Part shown: in pieces, positions 20,128 through 61,990 of the stretch | Layout of the letters: each line of letters opens with the position of its first letter | Numbering within the stretch: position 1 is the first letter of the stretch | From: a virus | Direction: 5' to 3' (one strand) | IMG/VR virus record: IMGVR_UViG_3300022752_000019 | Span: 100,604 to 164,603 of that record | DNA length: 64,000 nt | Position numbers and translations under genes: made by a program | The notes under the pieces: generated by a model | What the model was told of the DNA's origin: nothing | The model's input: only the letters and a program-made list of their open reading frames with translations | The model's database searches: none

Positions 20128-23100
20128 TCACTCCTCCGGATTTTCAATTTTGATGACATTGTCGGCTTTCAGCTTAGTGTACAGCGAGTCAACCATCTCA
20201 GCGGTCTTGTAGATAGACAGTGACTGTCGCTCCATTTCGCTCATGCCGCCGTTCAAGAACTGCTCGGCCTTCCCGGACATGCCGATGCCCTCTGTCACGA
20301 CGCCCGCAAGGGCGGAGCGTAACCCTGCCTGGTCGGTGGTCTTGATCTGCCCTCCCTCCGTCACCGCACCGGAAGACGCCAGTACCCGTGTCAGAGTTTC
20401 CTCGTCGAGTCCTGTCGCCTGCTTGGCCTCTGCAAGAGTGAGACCTCCCTTCTCTGCCTGCTCGAGCTGCTTGTAGACCTGGACACCAAACCCAAGAACA
20501 CGCTCTCCCTCGGAAGCAGTAGACCCGGCGCTAAAGTCCTGCTTGGCAAGCTGTTCAATAGCTGACCGGATGCCTTGCTGGTTGCCCTCAACCGTTAGAC
20601 CCTGCGCTGCTGCGGCAGTCACAAGGCCCTGGAGCTTCTCCTGCCTCTTGGCAGTAGACACCTTCGAGTCAATGGCTCCAGCAGCCTTGGAGATGGCCTC
20701 TGTAATCTCTTTCGATACCCCAGTCGCAGCACGATCGGCAGCACCCTTTCCGGTACGGCCCTTCAGCATTGTGTTCATATCCTTCAGGTCTCTTCCAGAG
20801 ACGTTTAGGCCATACTTTGAATTTATCCTCTTAGCCGCAGCCTCAAACTCGTCGTCAGTGACAAGTCCAGAAAGCTCCTTGTCGATATCCTTTTGATTGT
20901 CCGAGTACAGCTTCAGCAGTCCGGATGCCTCTCCTCCCTCTGCCAGTCGAGAGACTGCCTCCTCGTTATCGGTATCGAAGGCCAGCAGGCTTACTCCTCC
21001 CAGGAAGGCATTCCTGGCGCCAAACATGTCTGCGTCGGTGAACCCCGCAAACAAAGAGTCTCCGTACATTGCGCGCTTGGCATCAAGTTGGAGCTGCTTA
21101 ATGTCCTTCGCAGAACCCTCCGCGCCCTCTGTCCTTCCTACATTTGCTTCGGTGACAAGCTTGAGCCCGGCCTCTCCTCCCTGCTCTGCGATAAGCGCAA
21201 AGAGTTGGTCCTTATCGTAGGTGCGATACGTCTCCCCTTGTCGAAAACGGCCAAGTTTTAGGTCGTTAGCAAGGCGATCCATTTCCCGCTCAGTAAGAGC
21301 ACCGCCACCCTCCCTTAGCCGCGCGACTCGATTTGCAATGTCTACTCCGGAAGCGGCCGCACGCGCACGCGTCTCATCAGTCATGGAGGGCAGAGCGTTG
21401 CGCAGCGCCCCGAAGTCTCCCGATACCGCGGATAGCCGAGCTGCATCTCCCACGCCGAGCTTCACGTTGAGCGTATCTGCTCCGCGAAGTCCGCTGATGA
21501 TGGCATCTTGCATCGCCTTACTGCTGGCTCCGGCGATTACATCGTTGCCGCCACCAAGCATAACCCGCTCGACGTCCTGGAGACCCCCTACAATATCTCG
21601 GTAGCCTTCTGAGAACGGTTTTGTAAGCGTCTTTTTCGCATCCTCGAGGGTTCCAGTAATCTTTGTATAGGTCCCGCCTAACGTGCGCTGCTCTTTAAGT
21701 TCGGCCGCCCTGTCGTTAACACGCATCTCTTGAACCAACGCATCCATACGCTGCTTTCTCGTGTCCCTGAGTTTCTGGAGGTTGCGGACAGTTCTTCGAT
21801 CCATGTTCAGCTGAGTTTCAGCGACCAGCTGGAAGAGATCTTCGTTTTCTCCCGCTCCAGCACCATGCTGTTGTTCTGTCAGCGACTTGATCATGCCGAG
21901 AAGCGCATCCTGCCCCTCGCCAGTCTCCAGCATCGAGGACATGATGTCCTGTCTACGGGCTACGAACGATGCCTGCCCCTCTCTCGTATTCCGCTTACCT
22001 CCCGCAATACGGGACATCTGATCCCGCGTCATCACGCCGGCAGACATCGACTCGAGGATTCCGCGGTCAACATCGCCCGTAAATCGCCCAGACTCGTCTA
22101 CCTGGCCTGCGGCAAGAAGCATGGCGGTTCCAAGACCGCCGGAGAGGCCTTGCATTGTGCCCGAAAGCGTCTGCTGCGCGAGCATCTGCGCTGCTTCGAG
22201 CGGAGTGCCTGCGCCCGTAATGTCGATCATCTGCTCTGGACTCATCGCGCCCGACTTGATCGCGCCCATAAACTGCTCAGTCATCGCAGTCATCGTGCGC
22301 GCACCGCCGAGACCGGACATCTGCGCACTACGAGTCATTCCAGCCCCAGCGCGCTGCATGGCCGCAAACTGGTCCGAGGACATGCCAAAGCCGCGCATCA
22401 GGGTCATGCTGGCAGTGTTGCCCATGACATCTTGAGCAGTGTAGAAGCCCGATCCCCGCATGTCGCGGAAGATGTTTCCTGCCTCCTCCATGCTGGTCCC
22501 GAGCTTACGGGCCATCTCGTGCATGGTCTTTCCAAGCTGAGTCACACGCTTGGCAAGCTTTTCTGCATCCTGGATGCCTTGGTGCATCCCCATTTCGGTA
22601 AAGCGTTCCGTCGCACGGAGTGCATCAGACATCGACACAAACGGGTTATTTGCTCCAATCGCAGAGATTCCCCTTTGAAGGGTCATTAGGTCGCGCTGAC
22701 TGAATCCTCTGCCGGTTCGCGGATCTCCAGACGCATTTGCGAACTGCATGTTTCCAAACATTGCCCCAACTTGATTGGCTTGTTGCACTCCCGACGCAGC
22801 GAGGCCCGCTACTGCGGAGGCGCCCATGAGCCCAAGCCCCGCGTATCCTCCTACCATACCCATCATGAGGCCGCTATCCGCGGCAGTTCCAATCCAGCCG
22901 GACGTCAAAATGGGAGCTCCCAGCAACCGAGACCCAAGGTTGATTAGCCCTGCGCCCATGACGCCTGCCTGTCCGGCTTCTGCCATCCCATGTACTGCGC
23001 CAATTCCTCCTGAGACTAAGGAGTTACCCATGTAAGCCCCCCCTCGATGCTGCGCATGAGGAGTGTCTTGGGCGTAGCTAAACGAGGGGGGGTAGTGAGA

Positions 23101-23193: not shown

Positions 23194-23538
23194 ATGTTTT
23201 TGGCTCTTATTGCGTTCGCAGTGGCAAACGTTACCGCAACCACCGCCGCCAAAGTCCGCGAGGACGAGGCGGAGAAGAACGAGCGGCGGGCCTTTGCCGC
23301 CGCCTTGAAGGAGGCGACTGTCCTCCTTCAGGGGGAGAAGGTCAGCCCCTGGGCGGAAAGGGGCTACGAAGACAACGGTGCTCGATCGGTCGTTCTCCAC
23401 GGGGTGGAGTTTTTCTTCACGCCCGCGGAGGTCTCGTGGCTGGAAACGGCCACGAGCGGGGGCACTGATTTCAGTGCTCCCGAAGTTGCCCATCTGTTGG
23501 GCAAAGGCCTGCTGCGGGCCCACGCAAAGCCGCAGTAG
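23194..23538 (+). CDS. Small secreted or membrane-anchored protein, unknown
   Basis: A 114-aa protein with a hydrophobic N-terminus (MFLALIAFAVANVTATTAA) that looks like a signal peptide, then a charged helix and VVLHGVEFFFTPAEVSWLE. ATG 23194 follows AAGGAGG at good spacing; an in-frame GTG lies in the SD itself. It is a self-contained cassette with its own promoter and UUCG hairpin, on the opposite strand to the virion genes. Unknown function. Confidence 0.75.
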   Translation: MFLALIAFAVANVTATTAAKVREDEAEKNERRAFAAALKEATVLLQGEKVSPWAERGYEDNGARSVVLHGVEFFFTPAEVSWLETATSGGTDFSAPEVAHLLGKGLLRAHAKPQ

Positions 23539-25100: not shown

Positions 25101-25464
25101 AGCCTCCGAAGATGAATGCTTCCTTCGGATGTCCGGCTTGCTCTTTGGCAGCCTCCTCTGCCCTGCGGGATACCTCGGCCATCTCTTGTTGCTGCCTGCG
25201 ATGCGCCTCGGCTCGCCTGCGAATCTGGTGAATCTCTTTGAGCTTCTCTTCCACTGCATCTTCCGAGAAGATGCGCTGCTCGATCAGCAGTGCCTTCATC
25301 GAGGCAAGGAGGTCATCGTGCGTGGTGGCCGCCTCTCCCAGCACCGCGTCATTGGCAAAGAGAGCCTGAACTTCACGAATGAGGCGATCAATCCCATCCG
25401 CCTGAACCTTCTCGAGAGTGGCAACTCGCTTCTCGAGCGCGATAATGCGTTCTTCCTGGGTCAT
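25099..25464 (-). CDS. Coiled-coil protein, unknown
   Basis: A 121-aa protein of heptad-rich helices at both ends (EERIIALEKRVATLEKVQAD; HRRQQQEMAEVSRRAEEAAKE) ending AFIFGG. The start overlaps the previous stop as ATGA. No enzyme motif. Perhaps an assembly or scaffolding factor; not provable here. Confidence 0.74.
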   Translation of the reverse strand: MTQEERIIALEKRVATLEKVQADGIDRLIREVQALFANDAVLGEAATTHDDLLASMKALLIEQRIFSEDAVEEKLKEIHQIRRRAEAHRRQQQEMAEVSRRAEEAAKEQAGHPKEAFIFGG

Positions 25465-25727
25465 GTCAGCTCCGCTCCAAGGATGACTTTGACTTCCTTC
25501 TCCATCTCAGTGACCCCCTCCTCCAGCTCCTCCACGAACTCCTCAATGAGATCGGTGGAGACGGGGGCTCCCTCACAGGAGATCTGAGCCAGAGGCTCAG
25601 GTACTCCATCACGCGGCAAATAACGCGTGCGAAGAATTTGGGCCAGTGTAGATTGGACCGCGGCGCGCTGTTTGAGTTCTCGAACCTGTGTCAGGACAAG
25701 GCCAACCGTCTTTGTTGCAGCAGGCAT
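25461..25727 (-). CDS. Small acidic protein, unknown
   Basis: An 88-aa protein from ATG 25727, supported by GGAGGA about 8 nt upstream. Helical, with an acidic C-terminal segment (LIEEFVEELEEGVTEMEKEV). Coupled to the coiled-coil gene. Unknown function. Confidence 0.74.
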   Translation of the reverse strand: MPAATKTVGLVLTQVRELKQRAAVQSTLAQILRTRYLPRDGVPEPLAQISCEGAPVSTDLIEEFVEELEEGVTEMEKEVKVILGAELT

Positions 25728-40476: not shown

Positions 40477-40898
40477 GGGGCCGACAGGTTTCGACGGGGT
40501 ATTGGATAGGGATTCGGCGTCGCGGCGTGGCTACCGGCTTGACGGTGGCGCAGAGACAACTGCGAACAACACCAACGCTTTCGCCCCGGTCGCTCTCGCG
40601 GCCTGAGTGAAAGTCTGGGGACTACGTGAGCCCCAGCGTCAGGAGTGAGAGCTGACTCAGCTCATTCTTGGCGTATCCTCTGAGTCCTGGGAGTGTGGGG
40701 GAAGTCATAGCGCCTCCTCATTCAGCATTGAGCAACCAATGCAGCCAGCCGGAGTACAAGCCATCCGGGGCAAAAGAACGTGCGACACCTCGGAAAGACG
40801 GAGGACACCCGGCCCGCTGGGTTAAGCACGGGCAGGCGACGTAACTGATGAACTCAAAGATGCTTCGGACGTGGGTTCGATTCCCACCGGCTCCACCA
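40477..40898 (+). ncRNA. ssrA: tmRNA (transfer-messenger RNA)
   Basis: A 422-nt RNA. The 5' end GGGGCCGACAGGTTTCGACG and 3' end GGTTCGATTCCCACCGGCTC plus CACCA form the tRNA-like domain, with acceptor GGGGCCG/CGGCTCC containing G3-U70 for alanylation. The tag frame begins at GCG 40562 and reads ANNTNAFAPVALAA before TGA 40604-40606. A C-terminal ALAA is the usual degradation signal. tmRNA with SmpB rescues stalled ribosomes and tags the peptide. Phage-borne copies are uncommon; this one sits among phage tRNAs. Confidence 0.95.
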
Positions 40899-51973: not shown

Positions 51974-52025
51974 AATAGTAAGCAGAGGAAAAAACCACTC
52001 ATTCCCCTCTGCGATGGAGGCTGCC

Positions 52026-52436
52026 ATGAAGGCGGTCTACGTCGGCGTCATCCTCGACGCCGCCGCCACCGAAGCGTTGCTTCGGTGGTGGGAGGCTGTG
52101 GTGGGCGAGCTGCTTCAGAAGCACATCGCCCACCACTGCACCCTCCGCTTCCGCCCCACGGAAGCGGAGCTGGCCGAGTACGAGCTCGGCCAGGCGACGA
52201 CCCTGCGGGTCGTGGGCTTCGCCCACGACGCCGGCATCCAGGCCGTCGTGGTGGAACTCGCGGGTGACATGCGGTCGGCGAACGCCGTCCCCCATGTCAC
52301 CCTCGCCACGGACGGGGTAACGCCCCCGGTCCGGGCGAACGACCTCCTGTCGGCGGGGTTCACCCCCGTCGACGGGCCCGTGCTCACGGGGCGCGTGGGC
52401 GCCTTCGACGGCAAGACCGACGTCTTCAGCCGTTGA
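52026..52436 (+). CDS. 2H phosphoesterase (cyclic phosphodiesterase-like)
   Basis: A 136-aa protein from ATG 52026 (SD GGAGGCTGCC). Two HxT motifs, H37-C-T39-L and H90-V-T92-L (PHVTLAT), about 51 residues apart, define the 2H phosphoesterase fold; the C-terminal pattern PVRANDLLSAGFTPVDGPVL resembles the cyclic-phosphodiesterase branch linked to tRNA ligases. It may open 2',3'-cyclic phosphates on cleaved RNA, or degrade cyclic nucleotide signals as anti-CBASS Acb1 does. Lies two cassettes from a PNK-like kinase. The substrate is unproven. Confidence 0.8.
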   Translation: MKAVYVGVILDAAATEALLRWWEAVVGELLQKHIAHHCTLRFRPTEAELAEYELGQATTLRVVGFAHDAGIQAVVVELAGDMRSANAVPHVTLATDGVTPPVRANDLLSAGFTPVDGPVLTGRVGAFDGKTDVFSR

Positions 52437-52984: not shown

Positions 52985-53014
52985 GTTTAAAATTAGCTTG
53001 TTTTAGGTCATAAT
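52985..53014 (+). promoter_or_regulatory. Promoter of the first structured-RNA cassette
   Basis: TTTAAA, about 17-nt spacer, GGTCATAAT (hexamer 53009-53014), nearly identical to the previous cassette promoter. Confidence 0.68.
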
Positions 53015-53019
53015 AATTA

Positions 53020-53273
53020 TAGAGGAGGGCGCGACGTAAGAGCAAGACGACTAAAACGGACTTGCAACACTGCGGCGCGTCTGGACCGGATCGAGGGATG
53101 ACCTTGATCGTAGGAGCCTCGATTCCCCAGTGCAGAGGACAAACTGCATGGGGTGTACGAACTCGCCGCTGGGGGGCGGGAACAAAGGATGATGCGAAGG
53201 CATCATGTTTTGTAAGTTCGTACAAGGAAAAGCAAGACGTGGGCCCATCCAGTGTGGAAGGGCCCATTTCTTT
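53020..53273 (+). ncRNA. Candidate structured non-coding RNA, ~250 nt
   Basis: The segment between a cassette promoter and a terminator holds no well-coded frame. Helices seen: GCAAG/CTTGC; ATCGAGG/CCTCGAT; TGCAG/CTGCA; a 10-bp long-range stem TGTACGAACT (53154-53163) with AGTTCGTACA (53215-53224) enclosing ATGATGC/GCATCAT; and the terminator TGGGCCC/GGGCCCA (53240-53266) with TTTCTTT. A 64-codon frame from 53098 exists but has poor G/C third positions and its SD touches the ATG. RNA function unknown. Confidence 0.58.
53240..53273 (+). terminator. Terminator of the first structured-RNA cassette
   Basis: TGGGCCC pairs with GGGCCCA, then TTTCTTT. Confidence 0.72.
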
Positions 53274-53297
53274 ACCTGGTACGTTTCTTTAGCTGTT

Positions 53298-53326
53298 TCT
53301 AAAAAATACAGAATTTCTGTCATAAG
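53298..53326 (+). promoter_or_regulatory. Promoter of the second structured-RNA cassette
   Basis: CTAAAA, about 17-nt spacer, CTGTCATAAG (hexamer 53321-53326). Confidence 0.58.
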
Positions 53327-53330
53327 GAGA

Positions 53331-53530
53331 ATGGAGGAACCCCGCATATCTCCTCCCCACGCGCGGCCTTCGAGAGGGCTGTTCCCGCGCGTGGTAATCA
53401 GCTTCGCCCTTCCTCGCCTGCGGTTCCAACCTGGTCCCCGCCGCAGGGATTCAACGAGATGGGGACACTAAAATCAATCGGAAGTCAGGTAAAGTTTGAA
53501 TTGAGGGAATGATCACCCCTCAATTCTTTT
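53331..53530 (+). ncRNA. Candidate structured RNA, ~200 nt, with possible 17-codon frame
   Basis: Consecutive perfect hairpins: GGAGGA/TCCTCC at the 5' end; CCACGCGCGG/CCGCGCGTGG (53357-53366 with 53385-53394); CCTGCGG/CCGCAGG (53417-53423 with 53441-53447); and the terminator. A 17-aa frame MGTLKSIGSQVKFELRE runs 53459-53512 with AGGGA about 10 nt upstream and its stop inside the terminator. Either a small RNA or a structured leader for a micropeptide. Confidence 0.55.
53498..53530 (+). terminator. Intrinsic terminator
   Basis: GAATTGAGGG pairs with CCCTCAATTC, followed by TTTT. Confidence 0.82.
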
Positions 53531-53550
53531 AGCTGGCGTACTGTCCTATC

Positions 53551-53637: not shown

Positions 53638-54090
53638 ATGGGCACTCTTCTCATCATCCGCGGCCTGCCCGGCAGCGGGAAGTCCACGCTCGCGGCGCAG
53701 ATCGCTGCCGAGCGCGGCTTCCCGCCGCCTCGGGCGGCGGATGACTACTTTACCGACCCGGAGGGTCGGTACACCTTCAACCCTGCCCTCCTGGGCGCCG
53801 CGCACGCGGCGTGCCAGCAGGGCACTGCCGACGACCTCCGCGCCCACGGGGCGGCGGTGGTCGCCAACACGTTCACGCAGGGCTGGGAGATCCGGCCCTA
53901 CGTGAACATCGCCCGCGAGGCCGCCGTTGAGATTGAGGTCATCGACCTCTTCGACGGCGGCCTCTCCGACTCCGCCCTCGAGCGCCGCAATGTCCACGGC
54001 GTTCCGGCCAGCACCATCGCCGCCATGCGCGCGCGGTGGGAGTCGGACTGGCGGGCGGGTGATCCCCGTCCGCCGTGGGCGCGGAAGTAG
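53638..54090 (+). CDS. Polynucleotide-kinase-like P-loop kinase
   Basis: A 150-aa protein from ATG 53638, about 7 nt after GGAGG. Walker A GLPGSGKS (9-16), ADDYF (34-38), ANTFTQGWEIRPYV (76-89) and ERRNVHGVP (115-123) follow the PNK/N4BP2-type kinase pattern, where Arg residues in the lid bind ATP. It would phosphorylate 5'-OH ends of RNA or DNA. Compact: no phosphatase domain. The nearby 2H phosphoesterase could heal the matching 3' end. Confidence 0.82.
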   Translation: MGTLLIIRGLPGSGKSTLAAQIAAERGFPPPRAADDYFTDPEGRYTFNPALLGAAHAACQQGTADDLRAHGAAVVANTFTQGWEIRPYVNIAREAAVEIEVIDLFDGGLSDSALERRNVHGVPASTIAAMRARWESDWRAGDPRPPWARK

Positions 54091-54816: not shown

Positions 54817-55656
54817 TTGCTACTGGAAACCGACATGAAGTTCGAGAACGAGATTGTCTTCAACTACGGCGCCACCTCCACGATCGAGGAGATGGAGCCC
54901 AACTCCATCTACCTCGACGGGGCCTGCCGCGGCCCCGCCATCGACAACGAGAAGCGCAGCTACTCGTTCGATCACCACGCCGGGTGCTCCCGGTTCGCCA
55001 CCCTGTCCACCTGTGAACAGGTGCTCCTCGCGTTGGATATGGGCTTGGATCCGCGGGGCCTCCGCGTGGTCGTCAACGACCTCGACGCCGACACCTCCGT
55101 CGCGATCTGGTTGCTGTTCAACAGCAACCGCATCGACGACCGGGTGCGCGAACAGGTCCACAAGATCGGGCGAGTGGACTCGCACGGCCCCCTGTGGGCG
55201 CCGACGCGGCTCCACAAGGCGCTGACGCGCAGACCGGGCGCTGTGCAAACTTTCGAAGACCTCCTGGCGGACCAGGCGAAGATCAACGCCTGGGCGGAAG
55301 GCGGCGATCGGGCGCTGCCCGAGCCGTTCGCCATGCCCCCGTGCCCGATGCACGGCCTCAACGTCCACGGGGACGTGGTCGAGGTGATGGGGGACTTCGC
55401 CGCGGCCTACGCCGCCGGCGCCATCGTCGCCCTGGCCAAGGTGCCCGGCCCCGCCGGCACCATCGGCTGGACAATCGGGAAGAAGAGCGATTTTGCCAGG
55501 GGCGATATCCCCGGCTTCTTGGCGGAGATGAACTCGGTCGAGCCCGGATGGGGCGGCGGGTCCACGATCGGGGGCGCTCCGCGCAACCCCGACGGGACGC
55601 GGTCCCGTCTCAGCTTCACCGAGGTCTGGCCCATCTTCCTGAAGCACGCGCGGTAG
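54817..55656 (+). CDS. DHH-like phosphoesterase-type protein
   Basis: A 279-aa protein. A rare TTG start at 54817 is chosen because GGAGG lies 5 nt upstream; the first ATG (54835) has no SD. SFDHHAG (50-56), VNDLDADTSVA (86-96) and VDSHGP (120-125) resemble the metal-binding DHH/DHD motifs of the DHH phosphoesterase superfamily, which includes nanoRNases and cyclic-dinucleotide phosphodiesterases. Cleavage of small nucleotides, perhaps defence signals, is possible but unproven. Followed by a strong UUCG terminator. Confidence 0.66.
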   Translation: MLLETDMKFENEIVFNYGATSTIEEMEPNSIYLDGACRGPAIDNEKRSYSFDHHAGCSRFATLSTCEQVLLALDMGLDPRGLRVVVNDLDADTSVAIWLLFNSNRIDDRVREQVHKIGRVDSHGPLWAPTRLHKALTRRPGAVQTFEDLLADQAKINAWAEGGDRALPEPFAMPPCPMHGLNVHGDVVEVMGDFAAAYAAGAIVALAKVPGPAGTIGWTIGKKSDFARGDIPGFLAEMNSVEPGWGGGSTIGGAPRNPDGTRSRLSFTEVWPIFLKHAR

Positions 55657-57299: not shown

Positions 57300-57340
57300 C
57301 GGTCGGTGCGGATCACTTCTTAGCTTGTCCTATCATACAT

Positions 57341-57369
57341 CTTAAAAAACACAAGAAATCTGTCATAAT
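57341..57369 (+). promoter_or_regulatory. Promoter of the large structured RNA
   Basis: CTTAAA, 17-nt spacer, CTGTCATAAT (hexamer 57364-57369), followed by ATAGGTA. Strong match to the cassette promoter class. Confidence 0.68.
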
Positions 57370-57375
57370 ATAGGT

Positions 57376-57883
57376 AGTGAAGAGTTGATACTAAAACCTC
57401 CCTCACTCCGCGAGGGCCACCACTGCGGAGGGTTTGGGGTCTCTTCACTAACCACAAGTCAGATCATCTCGCCCTGGAAAGCGAGACCTGATTTGCAGGG
57501 CCTGAGTGTTTGGTACGTCGGCCGGCGTATTGGGCATTCAGCTCCTGGGTGGGTTGTGCAGCTGCTTCTCGACGTGCGCACCAAGAGAGGCAGCTGCATC
57601 ACACCGAAAAGCCCTGGTGGCACCGCCGGGCTCGAGGAGTACCAGAACTCCTCCTTCTTCACGCAAAGCGTGGAGAGTCTCAGCGCCATAGGGCCAGCCA
57701 GCTTCGAGCTGGCTGCTGGCAAGGGCTGAGCGGACTGGAAAGGGGGCACTGGGGCTCCCTGGACGCAGCGTAAATGCGTCCCCGAAAGTGGTACACTCCT
57801 GTCACTAAGAAGGGGTGAGGTCTACACACAAACCCAGATTTCGACAACAGAGCGATCCTCCCAGGGGCGCTCTGTTGTCTTTT
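57376..57883 (+). ncRNA. Candidate large structured non-coding RNA, ~505 nt
   Basis: No well-coded frame crosses this region. By eye it folds into about ten helices: P1 GTGAAGAG/CTCTTCAC (57377-57384 with 57441-57448) enclosing CTCCGC/GCGGAG; CAAGTCAG + TCTCGC with GCGAGA + CTGATTTG (57455-57495); CAGG/CCTG, CTGAGTG/CATTCAG and TACG/CGTA nested at 57496-57547; TGCAGCTGC/GCAGCTGCA (57557-57598); AGCCC/GGGCT; GAGGAGT/ACTCCTC; CACGC/GCGTG; CTCAGC/GCTGAG with CAGCCAGCT/AGCTGGCTG (57695-57715); GGACGCA/TGCGTCC; then the terminator. It has its own promoter. Resembles in size and style ornate large phage RNAs (ROOL/GOLLD type), with no sequence identity claimed. Confidence 0.72.
57844..57883 (+). 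terminator. Terminator of the large structured RNA
   Basis: ACAACAGAGCG pairs with CGCTCTGTTGT (11 bp) followed by CTTTT. Confidence 0.88.
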
Positions 57884-57928
57884 AGCTTGTCCTATCACCG
57901 GCTGACAGCTTGATACTTAGTCCTAAGT

Positions 57929-58777
57929 TCAGAAGAACGATGTCAGTGGCGTCGTGTCGGCAACCAGTGGTCGCGTGGATTCCGCGGAGCTTGCCGCTGC
58001 TTGTCCACCTCCCATCGGAGTACGAGAGGGCAGAGGCTTGCGGCCAAACGACCTGCGAATCCTGTCCACCTCCTCGGGTGTGAGCGTTAGCCGGTCACGC
58101 CCCGAGTTCGGGTAGACCGGCCCCGTCTGTTCATCCACGATGAAGTCCACGACCTTCCTTCGGCCATCTGAAGTAAGGACCGTGTTGCCCCGGTTCGCCA
58201 CCATCGGGTTTCCTGCCACTCCTCCTTCGGGCGTCACGATGTCGCGCACACGAAGATTGACACTCTCTGCGGCCTGATTCGCGGCTTGCTGCGCTTGCTG
58301 CGCAAAGGCGTTGTTTGCCGCTGAACGATCAATCTTTGTTCCCGGTACGTATTCTTTTAGCATGTAAGAGAACTGGTTGTTGTTCTGTCGGGCCTTGCCT
58401 CGTGTGTACATCTCCGCGAAGTCAGGGTTGCCTCTCAGAAGACCTCCCACTCGAACCTTCCTGTCCTCCTGCCCCGGAGAGTAGATCGGAGCCTCGGGGC
58501 TATACGTCTTGCGCACTGCAATCCGTCCCGGCTGATCTGTCGCACCCACCACAGTCTCTGCCAGCCCCTCCGCTCCAGACCCAAGCCCGCGTACCAACGA
58601 ACCCTGGTCCGTCACCTTCAATGCACCCGCATCCTGAAGCCTTCGCGTCAGCGCGTTCGCCTCATCCACCTTCCCCGCATCAAACAGCTTGCGCACCTCC
58701 CGAAGCTGACGCGGAGCCGCAAGCTTGGTCGTCTCCACGGCAAACGCCCGCCACACTTCCGCACTGATGAAAGACAT
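57929..58777 (-). CDS. Protein with a kinase-like catalytic-loop pattern
   Basis: A 282-aa protein from ATG 58777 (SD TGAGGGG). N-terminus SFISAEVWRAFAVETTKLAA, then LREVRKLFDAGKVDEANALT, as in some virion proteins. NRGNTVLTSDGRRKVVDFIV resembles a protein-kinase N-x4-dG-x-KVVDF loop, with FSYMLKEYVPG earlier as a possible hinge; the HRD aspartate is unclear, so it may be a pseudokinase-like fold or coincidence. TGATAGGA lies about 20 nt before the start. The only long minus-strand gene in this part. Confidence 0.62.
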   Translation of the reverse strand: MSFISAEVWRAFAVETTKLAAPRQLREVRKLFDAGKVDEANALTRRLQDAGALKVTDQGSLVRGLGSGAEGLAETVVGATDQPGRIAVRKTYSPEAPIYSPGQEDRKVRVGGLLRGNPDFAEMYTRGKARQNNNQFSYMLKEYVPGTKIDRSAANNAFAQQAQQAANQAAESVNLRVRDIVTPEGGVAGNPMVANRGNTVLTSDGRRKVVDFIVDEQTGPVYPNSGRDRLTLTPEEVDRIRRSFGRKPLPSRTPMGGGQAAASSAESTRPLVADTTPLTSFF

Positions 58778-59179: not shown

Positions 59180-59473
59180 ATGTTCGCTAAGACGTTCTCC
59201 ATGCTCAATCGTCACGGTGGTGCCATGGCCGTCGGTGGCGTTGTCGGTGCCGGTGTCGGCGCCGGCGCCTCCCACCTCGGACTGGTCAACACCGGGATCC
59301 CCACCGCCGCAGCGGTCGGCGCGGCGGCGGGCGCAATCGCGTTCTTCACGGGGTCCATCATCTGCGAAGACGATCAGCTCGCGCAGCTCTCCGAAGACGC
59401 CGAGAAGGCGGCGGTCAAGGCGGCGGAAGCGAAGGCCAAGGCCGAGGCCGAGAAGAAGAAGAAGAGCGCGTGA
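59180..59473 (+). CDS. Small membrane protein with charged tail
   Basis: A 97-aa protein (SD AAAGGTGACAT). Two Gly/Ala-rich hydrophobic segments (~15-35 and ~42-62) resemble glycine-zipper membrane hairpins, then an Ala/Lys/Glu helix ending KKKKSA. Such proteins can insert into the inner membrane; holin-like or superinfection-exclusion roles are possible. Own promoter and terminator. Confidence 0.75.
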   Translation: MFAKTFSMLNRHGGAMAVGGVVGAGVGAGASHLGLVNTGIPTAAAVGAAAGAIAFFTGSIICEDDQLAQLSEDAEKAAVKAAEAKAKAEAEKKKKSA

Positions 59474-60035: not shown

Positions 60036-60097
60036 GAGCTGTGCGCTGCTTGGGTGGAATAGCTGCCCATGCGCGAATTGCGAATGACGGAGCAACG

Positions 60098-60457
60098 ATG
60101 AGACGCGCATGCAAGACCTGCCCGTGGTGGAAGATGACTGCCACTCCGTGCCCCTACTGCAAAGGTAGGTGCTGCCGAGATTATCTCGGCTACAAGCCCA
60201 CACACATGAACGACGAGTTCTACAGGCACGTCTGCGACCACTGTGAGGACGGCACTCACGGAACCCCGAGTCCCTACGACCCCAAAACCGACCCCTACGT
60301 GCGGGATGCCTGTGTGGCACTGGGCGTGTATGTGAACACCCTCCTCCCCGGCTACGACCCCCTGACGGTCGCGGCCCAGGTGGAACGCCGGGCGATGGAG
60401 ATCGCCGAACGCGCCGTGCGCGCGGCGCTGAAGACGCATGACATCAAGGAGGATTGA
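60098..60457 (+). CDS. Cys-rich protein starting MRRACKTCPW
   Basis: A 119-aa protein from ATG 60098 (SD GGAG). CKTCPWWK, CPYCKGRCC and CDHCEDG are likely Zn sites; helical C-terminus (AAQVERRAMEIAERAVRAAL). Its first ~30 nt recur almost exactly inside the gene at 61598-61990. Unknown function. Confidence 0.72.
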   Translation: MRRACKTCPWWKMTATPCPYCKGRCCRDYLGYKPTHMNDEFYRHVCDHCEDGTHGTPSPYDPKTDPYVRDACVALGVYVNTLLPGYDPLTVAAQVERRAMEIAERAVRAALKTHDIKED

Positions 60458-61601: not shown

Positions 61602-61990
61602 CCCCCGCCGACCTCGACCCCATCAAAGCGCGTCTCGCCGCTGCGACCCCTGGACCCTGGGGGATGAGACGCGCATGCAAGACCTGCCCGTGGAGGAAGA
61701 GCGTGGAGCCCGGAGGGTTTCCGGGAGGATGCGTGAATGAGAGCGAACTTCGCCGCATGGCGTCAGGCGAGCCATACATGAAGGTGATGCAGTGCCACAG
61801 CACACCGGATGGAGAGCAGGCGAAGGTGTGCGTTGGCTTTGCGCTTCGCGTTGGAGACGCGAGCGTTGGCTATCGACTTTGCCGCATTGCGCGCATGCTT
61901 GATGAAGTTGAGGACGACGGCGACCTCCTCAACTCCGTGGATGAGGTCATTGAGCGGCACAACACGAGCCGCGGGCTGGTGTGCAAATGA
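61598..61990 (+). CDS. Fusion of an Ea22-like leader with a DUF6283-like Cys protein
   Basis: A 130-aa protein, GTG start in GTGA overlap. Residues ~8-21 repeat IKARLAAATPGPW of the 60784 gene, then MRRACKTCPWRK begins a CPWRK-type domain as in DUF6283 proteins, with CVNESELRRMASGEPYMKVM, C and C further on. The join follows TGG-GGG-ATG exactly at the old start codon, so recombination placed one module before another. ATG 61664 could still start the short form. Confidence 0.68.
   Translation: MTPADLDPIKARLAAATPGPWGMRRACKTCPWRKSVEPGGFPGGCVNESELRRMASGEPYMKVMQCHSTPDGEQAKVCVGFALRVGDASVGYRLCRIARMLDEVEDDGDLLNSVDEVIERHNTSRGLVCK

Follow-up and report, generated by a model that had tools for sequence, protein, structure and literature searches.

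A predicted ORF-less structured RNA among the hairpin-rich accessory cassettes of a tmRNA-carrying phage

The ROOL RNA is characterized by a multibranched fold with pseudoknots, by conserved loop-loop contacts and by its occurrence as a homo-octamer. Its size, its phage context and its association with a tRNA island have been described (PMC12286853) and are similar to what is found for the unit analyzed here. On a smaller scale, papers cited in PMC3997798 report that 5′-terminal stem-loops protect E. coli mRNAs from 5′-end-dependent decay. The unit under study, a stretch of about half a kilobase, is located in a 64,000-nt window (bases 100604-164603 of a 164,603-base virus record; all coordinates below are those of the window unless stated otherwise). 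In the initial annotation it was compared to the large structured RNAs ROOL and GOLLD, which often occur in tRNA-carrying phages. The phage indeed belongs to this group, as 39.7-43.9 kb of the window, 13.5 kb away from the unit, harbors a tmRNA gene together with 14 tRNA genes. The phage tmRNA itself (40477-40898, +; tag ANNTNAFAPVALAA) lies among the 14 tRNAs and is overlapped by a borderline match to the permuted-tmRNA model.

The proposed likeness to ROOL and GOLLD found no further support. The comparison with Rfam models, suggested as a check in the initial annotation, was run over all families and yielded no phage or bacterial RNA of the unit's size, even at E-values of up to 10; the listing up to this value contained seven partial matches, which were far under the cut-offs and mostly belonged to eukaryotic microRNA models. 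GOLLD did not match the unit in this all-family search, and the ROOL covariance model (RF03087) gave no match anywhere in the record at E-values of up to 10 (control genomes gave none either). In addition, the predicted base pairs of the unit are predominantly local, as described below.

Boundaries, coding potential and predicted fold of the unit

The unit is predicted to give rise to an ORF-less structured transcript of ~505 nt (57376-57883, +), with both its start and its end being predictions. It is preceded by a sigma-70-like promoter of a phage-specific class (57342-57377, +), consisting of TTAAAA, a spacer of 16 nt, CATAAT and then ATAGGTAG, with the extended -10 copy at 57362. Membership in this class was defined as a match to the -10 pattern GTCATAATA(N0-4)TAG, which occurs in 8 copies in the window and in none of the shuffled sequences; genome-wide, 13 copies are found outside of genes. 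The assignment of a phage promoter of the cassette class to the unit was thereby confirmed. The intrinsic terminator was found as well (57843-57883, +; P 1.00), although its stem, GACAACAGAGCG/CGCTCTGTTGTC followed by TTTT, comprises 12 bp and not the 11 bp initially given. Beyond the terminator ends a convergent protein gene (57929-58777, -) without a family match in PHROG or Pfam, and due to this orientation the unit is not the leader of the next gene. A distant relative of this convergent gene (31% identity) occurs among the structural genes of the related record G002 (91.5-92.1 kb).

On either side of the unit lies one copy of an 18-nt direct repeat. The left copy TCTTAGCTTGTCCTATCA (57318-57335, +) is located upstream of the promoter and differs by one mismatch from the right copy TTTTAGCTTGTCCTATCA (57880-57897, +). 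At up to three mismatches the repeat has two matches, compared to 0.12 expected (two matches were obtained in 1 of 100 shuffles). The motif TCCTATCA alone occurs at 10 places in the window vs. 0.9 expected (e.g., 53544, 57328, and 57890), and several of these copies sit directly after terminators and before promoters. The TCCTATCA copies perhaps mark a cassette boundary. Two further stretches of 38 nt (60097-60134 and 61663-61700), which are 97% identical, were noticed 1566 nt apart from each other.

Genes were called with a simple codon model, whose log-odds were derived from long genes of the phage itself. The resulting codon log-odds were negative in all six frames of the unit, and its sense strand (506 nt) contains one ATG compared to 3.7 expected (P 0.07). 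Starts that have an RBS-like site give rise to frames of at most 32 codons. Searches of the longest frame against PHROG and Pfam yielded no family match, and the frames of the unit, read through stops, matched none of the proteins of relatives, so that a pseudogene of such a protein was discarded as a candidate. All these observations agree with the earlier description of half a kilobase that does not contain a credible gene.

Folds were predicted at 37°C with pseudoknots left out. For 57376-57885 (+), the predicted fold has an energy of -250.5 kcal/mol and a z-score of -7.70 relative to dinucleotide shuffles (0 of 100 as good), whereas the reverse strand reaches -217.5 kcal/mol and a z-score of -4.97; correspondingly, the share of G-U pairs is 0.129 for the sense and 0.059 for the antisense strand. 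The fold comprises ~20 predicted helices, most of them with an ensemble probability above 0.9, and hairpins cover 0.283 of the unit compared to 0.061 in shuffles (highest of 200 shuffles, 0.227). Almost all pairs (97%) span at most 80 nt, in contrast to 66% in the phage's own tmRNA, and no stem encloses the whole RNA in the predicted fold.

At the 5′ end, a stem-loop extends over 57376-57449 (+), in which 9 bp beginning with the predicted first base are followed by 5 and 7 bp (P 0.98, 0.80, and 0.93, respectively). The 9-bp stem (shuffle p 0.03) pairs 57376-57384 with 57441-57449; it was previously described as a closing stem, and while it is present, it encloses no more than the first 74 nt rather than the RNA as a whole. 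It is followed on the same strand by a hairpin of 7+6 bp at 57460-57495 (P 0.99 for the inner 6 bp and 0.46 for the outer 7 bp) and by one of 5+18 bp at 57496-57547 (18 bp P 0.98), which contains several G-U pairs and therefore favors an RNA of the + strand. The next hairpin (57548-57605, +; 4+15 bp, 15 bp P 0.98) carries the 8-nt palindrome GTGCGCAC in its terminal loop. Further local hairpins follow one another at 57610-57732 (+; P 0.93-0.99), with stems of 5+4 bp, 7 bp, 10 bp, and 6 bp around an inner 8 bp. At 57741-57842 (+; P 0.99 to 0.43), two hairpins of 7 bp each are predicted and then helices of 6 and 7 bp, where the fold is least certain. With 18-bp, 15-bp, 10-bp, and 7+6-bp helices, the earlier notion of a region packed with perfect helices is well justified.

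Hairpin-rich protein-coding genes of the same promoter class

In a sliding fold scan of the window, the strongest folds fell on protein-coding genes located behind promoters of the same class, and the unit was accordingly rejected as the best-folded stretch. A protein gene at 52014-52436 (+), whose codons are tiled with hairpins, folds with -279 kcal/mol over 423 nt (z about -11, small shuffle set), and a P-loop kinase-like gene with hairpin-packed codons at 53638-54090 (+) with -302 kcal/mol over 453 nt (z about -19, 16 shuffles). For comparison, the fold z-score of the same phage's tmRNA is only -2; several of the z-scores rest on 12 to 16 shuffles and are therefore rough. When synonymous codons were shuffled while keeping the protein, the fold became much weaker in both genes (codon-shuffle z -8.9 and -4.7, respectively) and also in a third gene tiled with near-perfect hairpins (23194-23538; codon-shuffle z -9.3). 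The hairpins of these coding genes are near-perfect and run in rows through the codons, and both strands of the coding cassettes of the class fold almost equally well. Not all class genes behave in this way, since those at 59180 and 57028 are not hairpin-rich.

Across 14 related phage records, the excess hairpin cover of 19 class genes was 0.104 vs. 0.019 for 1748 other genes (p 4e-6). Omitting the window's phage gave a p-value of 0.007, and this is the cleaner test because the promoter class was first noticed in this window. In lambda and Salmonella phage Arash, of which stretches of 50 kb were examined, none of 90 genes had a hairpin-cover excess above 0.15, and compared to these stretches the tiling of genes with hairpins at synonymous positions looks unusual. 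The leaders of the class share a further trait, as 12 of 16 coding leaders contain a stem of at least 6 bp starting within the first 12 nt (3.8 expected; reached in 0 of 300 shuffle sets). The genes themselves usually begin 14-105 nt from the promoter.

The unit at 57376-57883 combines all three traits of the hairpin-armored cassette class proposed here, namely the promoter, the 5′-terminal stem, and excess hairpins in its body. Hairpin density and a 5′ stem are thus marks of a mostly protein-coding transcript class in this phage. A dense fold on its own is no mark of a non-coding RNA here, because real genes fold as densely at synonymous positions.

The same promoter class also precedes a second ORF-poor unit with its own terminator (53007-53536, +; z -4.8), of which the reverse strand is about equally structured and which has no match in Rfam. 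Its 5′ end is able to pair with a stretch ~390 nt downstream. This unit was considered as a possible relative of the one at 57376-57883 and was dismissed for lack of sequence similarity.

Search for relatives and alternative explanations

Using a portal-like protein as query, 298 loci were obtained in viral contigs, and 13 related records were taken for comparison. Searches with blastn for the unit in phages and plasmids, in 50 related records and, at word size 7, in the 13 relatives returned chance matches only. Scanning of viral and genome contigs with DNA patterns found only stretches of 16-22 nt with unrelated flanks, and single-stretch covariance models (R1 and R2) run over 1.7 Mb retrieved only the query itself, in both orientations. 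Membership in a conserved new class of RNA was not supported by searches by blastn, by DNA patterns or by covariance models built from a single sequence. Three neighboring proteins were additionally used as bait; one gave no match, one a single relative, and one five loci, of which one was new. The gene upstream of the unit (54835-55656) was found in only one related record, G008, where the gene order differs. Since few close relatives cover the region, the absence of homologs is no proof of uniqueness.

Several ORF-less stretches were observed in G008. Three of them (20652-21019, 22729-23100, and 25161-25561, -; ~360-390 nt) each separate a class promoter from the gene that follows it. An ORF-less stretch at L116:7184-7735 (-) of the same record is strongly folded, carries a tRNA-like T arm (GGGGGTTCGAGTCCCCC) as well as GGTGAG toward its 5′ side and CTCACC toward its 3′ side, and is separate from that phage's tmRNA (L116:9058-9460). 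Kinship of the unit with the three ORF-less stretches of G008 and with stretches of G010 and G020 was rejected, as there was no sequence similarity.

The unit is very probably a non-coding RNA, since it is free-standing, has no coding frame and shows a sense-strand fold preference based on G-U pairs. That it encodes a protein, either from a start other than ATG or in a very short ORF, is highly improbable: a frame of 114 codons that begins with TTG (57385-57729) and a GTG-started sub-frame with a weak score do exist, but neither of these starts has a ribosome-binding site, and the negative codon log-odds across the unit and the missing family match speak against translation. Alternatively, the unit might be a relic cassette in which loss or scrambling of the gene left the promoter, the 5′ stem, the terminator and some hairpins behind. 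This would fit the short distance at which class promoters normally have a gene, the hairpin tiling of the coding sequences of the class, and the fact that no homolog of the RNA was found, as a relic predicts. However, no frame keeps a codon bias or matches proteins of relatives, and the strand-biased helices of 15 and 18 bp would decay without selection, which for the pairs of the unit is deduced from one sequence. Taken together, we consider a relic unlikely.

The strand bias also bears on the proposal that the hairpins act in DNA, e.g., as quasi-palindromes that arose through template switching or as sites where cassettes recombine. In favor of this, both strands of the coding cassettes fold almost equally and an 18-nt direct repeat flanks the unit, but the sense strand of the unit folds much better than its reverse and contains more G-U pairs, which renders a function at the DNA level quite improbable. 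A new large ornate phage RNA similar to ROOL or GOLLD, with a defined tertiary structure and perhaps forming multimers via loop-loop contacts, would be in line with the size, the phage context and the tRNA island, as in ROOL (PMC12286853), and with the fold z-score of -7.7, and the palindrome GTGCGCAC in the loop of the 15-bp hairpin could in principle pair two copies. Given the missing matches to Rfam and ROOL, the local nature of the pairs, the lack of a stem spanning the whole RNA, and the presence of packed hairpins and a 5′ stem in mRNAs of the same class, we regard such an RNA, and with it a ROOL-like assembly of the unit's transcript, as distinctly unlikely.

Proposed role and comparison with known systems

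Since the protein-coding neighbors fold as densely, the unit is probably part of a set of heavily folded transcripts rather than a giant-RNA machine. With about even confidence, we interpret it as a free-standing non-coding member of the phage's hairpin-armored accessory-cassette transcripts. RNA polymerase would produce the RNA from the strong promoter, probably early in infection. Its 5′ stem would deny decay enzymes a free 5′ end, its hairpins would leave few single-stranded sites for cleavage and the terminator stem would block 3′ exonucleases, so that the RNA as a whole might be long-lived. The mRNAs of the neighboring cassettes would carry the same armor, for which stability toward nucleases appears to be the likeliest purpose. 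Without an encoded protein, the functional product of the unit would be its transcript. We speculate that it presents many short helices to an RNA-binding protein or nuclease of host or phage and thereby titrates that protein, a function that is plausible but unproven.

In a broader and more tentative view, which we regard as possible though doubtful, this large-phage lineage armors whole accessory transcripts, coding and non-coding ones alike, by a 5′ stem and by end-to-end hairpins placed in synonymous codons, against decay or RNA-targeting immunity, with the unit being a purely non-coding product and possibly a nuclease decoy. If stable, an RNA that lacks an ORF and has a promoter of its own would be noteworthy in itself in a phage that carries a tmRNA, and it raises the question of whether phages armor their transcripts against RNA decay or RNA-guided defense.

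Among described systems, ROOL (RF03087) resembles the unit in being phage-borne, ORF-less, 500-660 nt long, rich in helices and located near tRNA islands, whereas the unit is a string of local hairpins that has neither a closing stem for the whole RNA nor a family of homologs. GOLLD is likewise a large structured phage RNA with a tRNA context, but the unit is smaller, contains no tRNA and does not match Rfam. The 5′ stem-loops of the ompA/papA type, which stabilize mRNAs, share with the unit a stem-loop located at the very start of the transcript or close to it; unlike these, the predicted stem of the unit belongs to a phage promoter class and heads a gene-less RNA. Finally, unclassified structured RNAs of phages are similar in having their own promoter and terminator, no ORF and an orphan sequence, while the hairpin density and the leader of the unit are common to protein-coding cassettes of the same phage.
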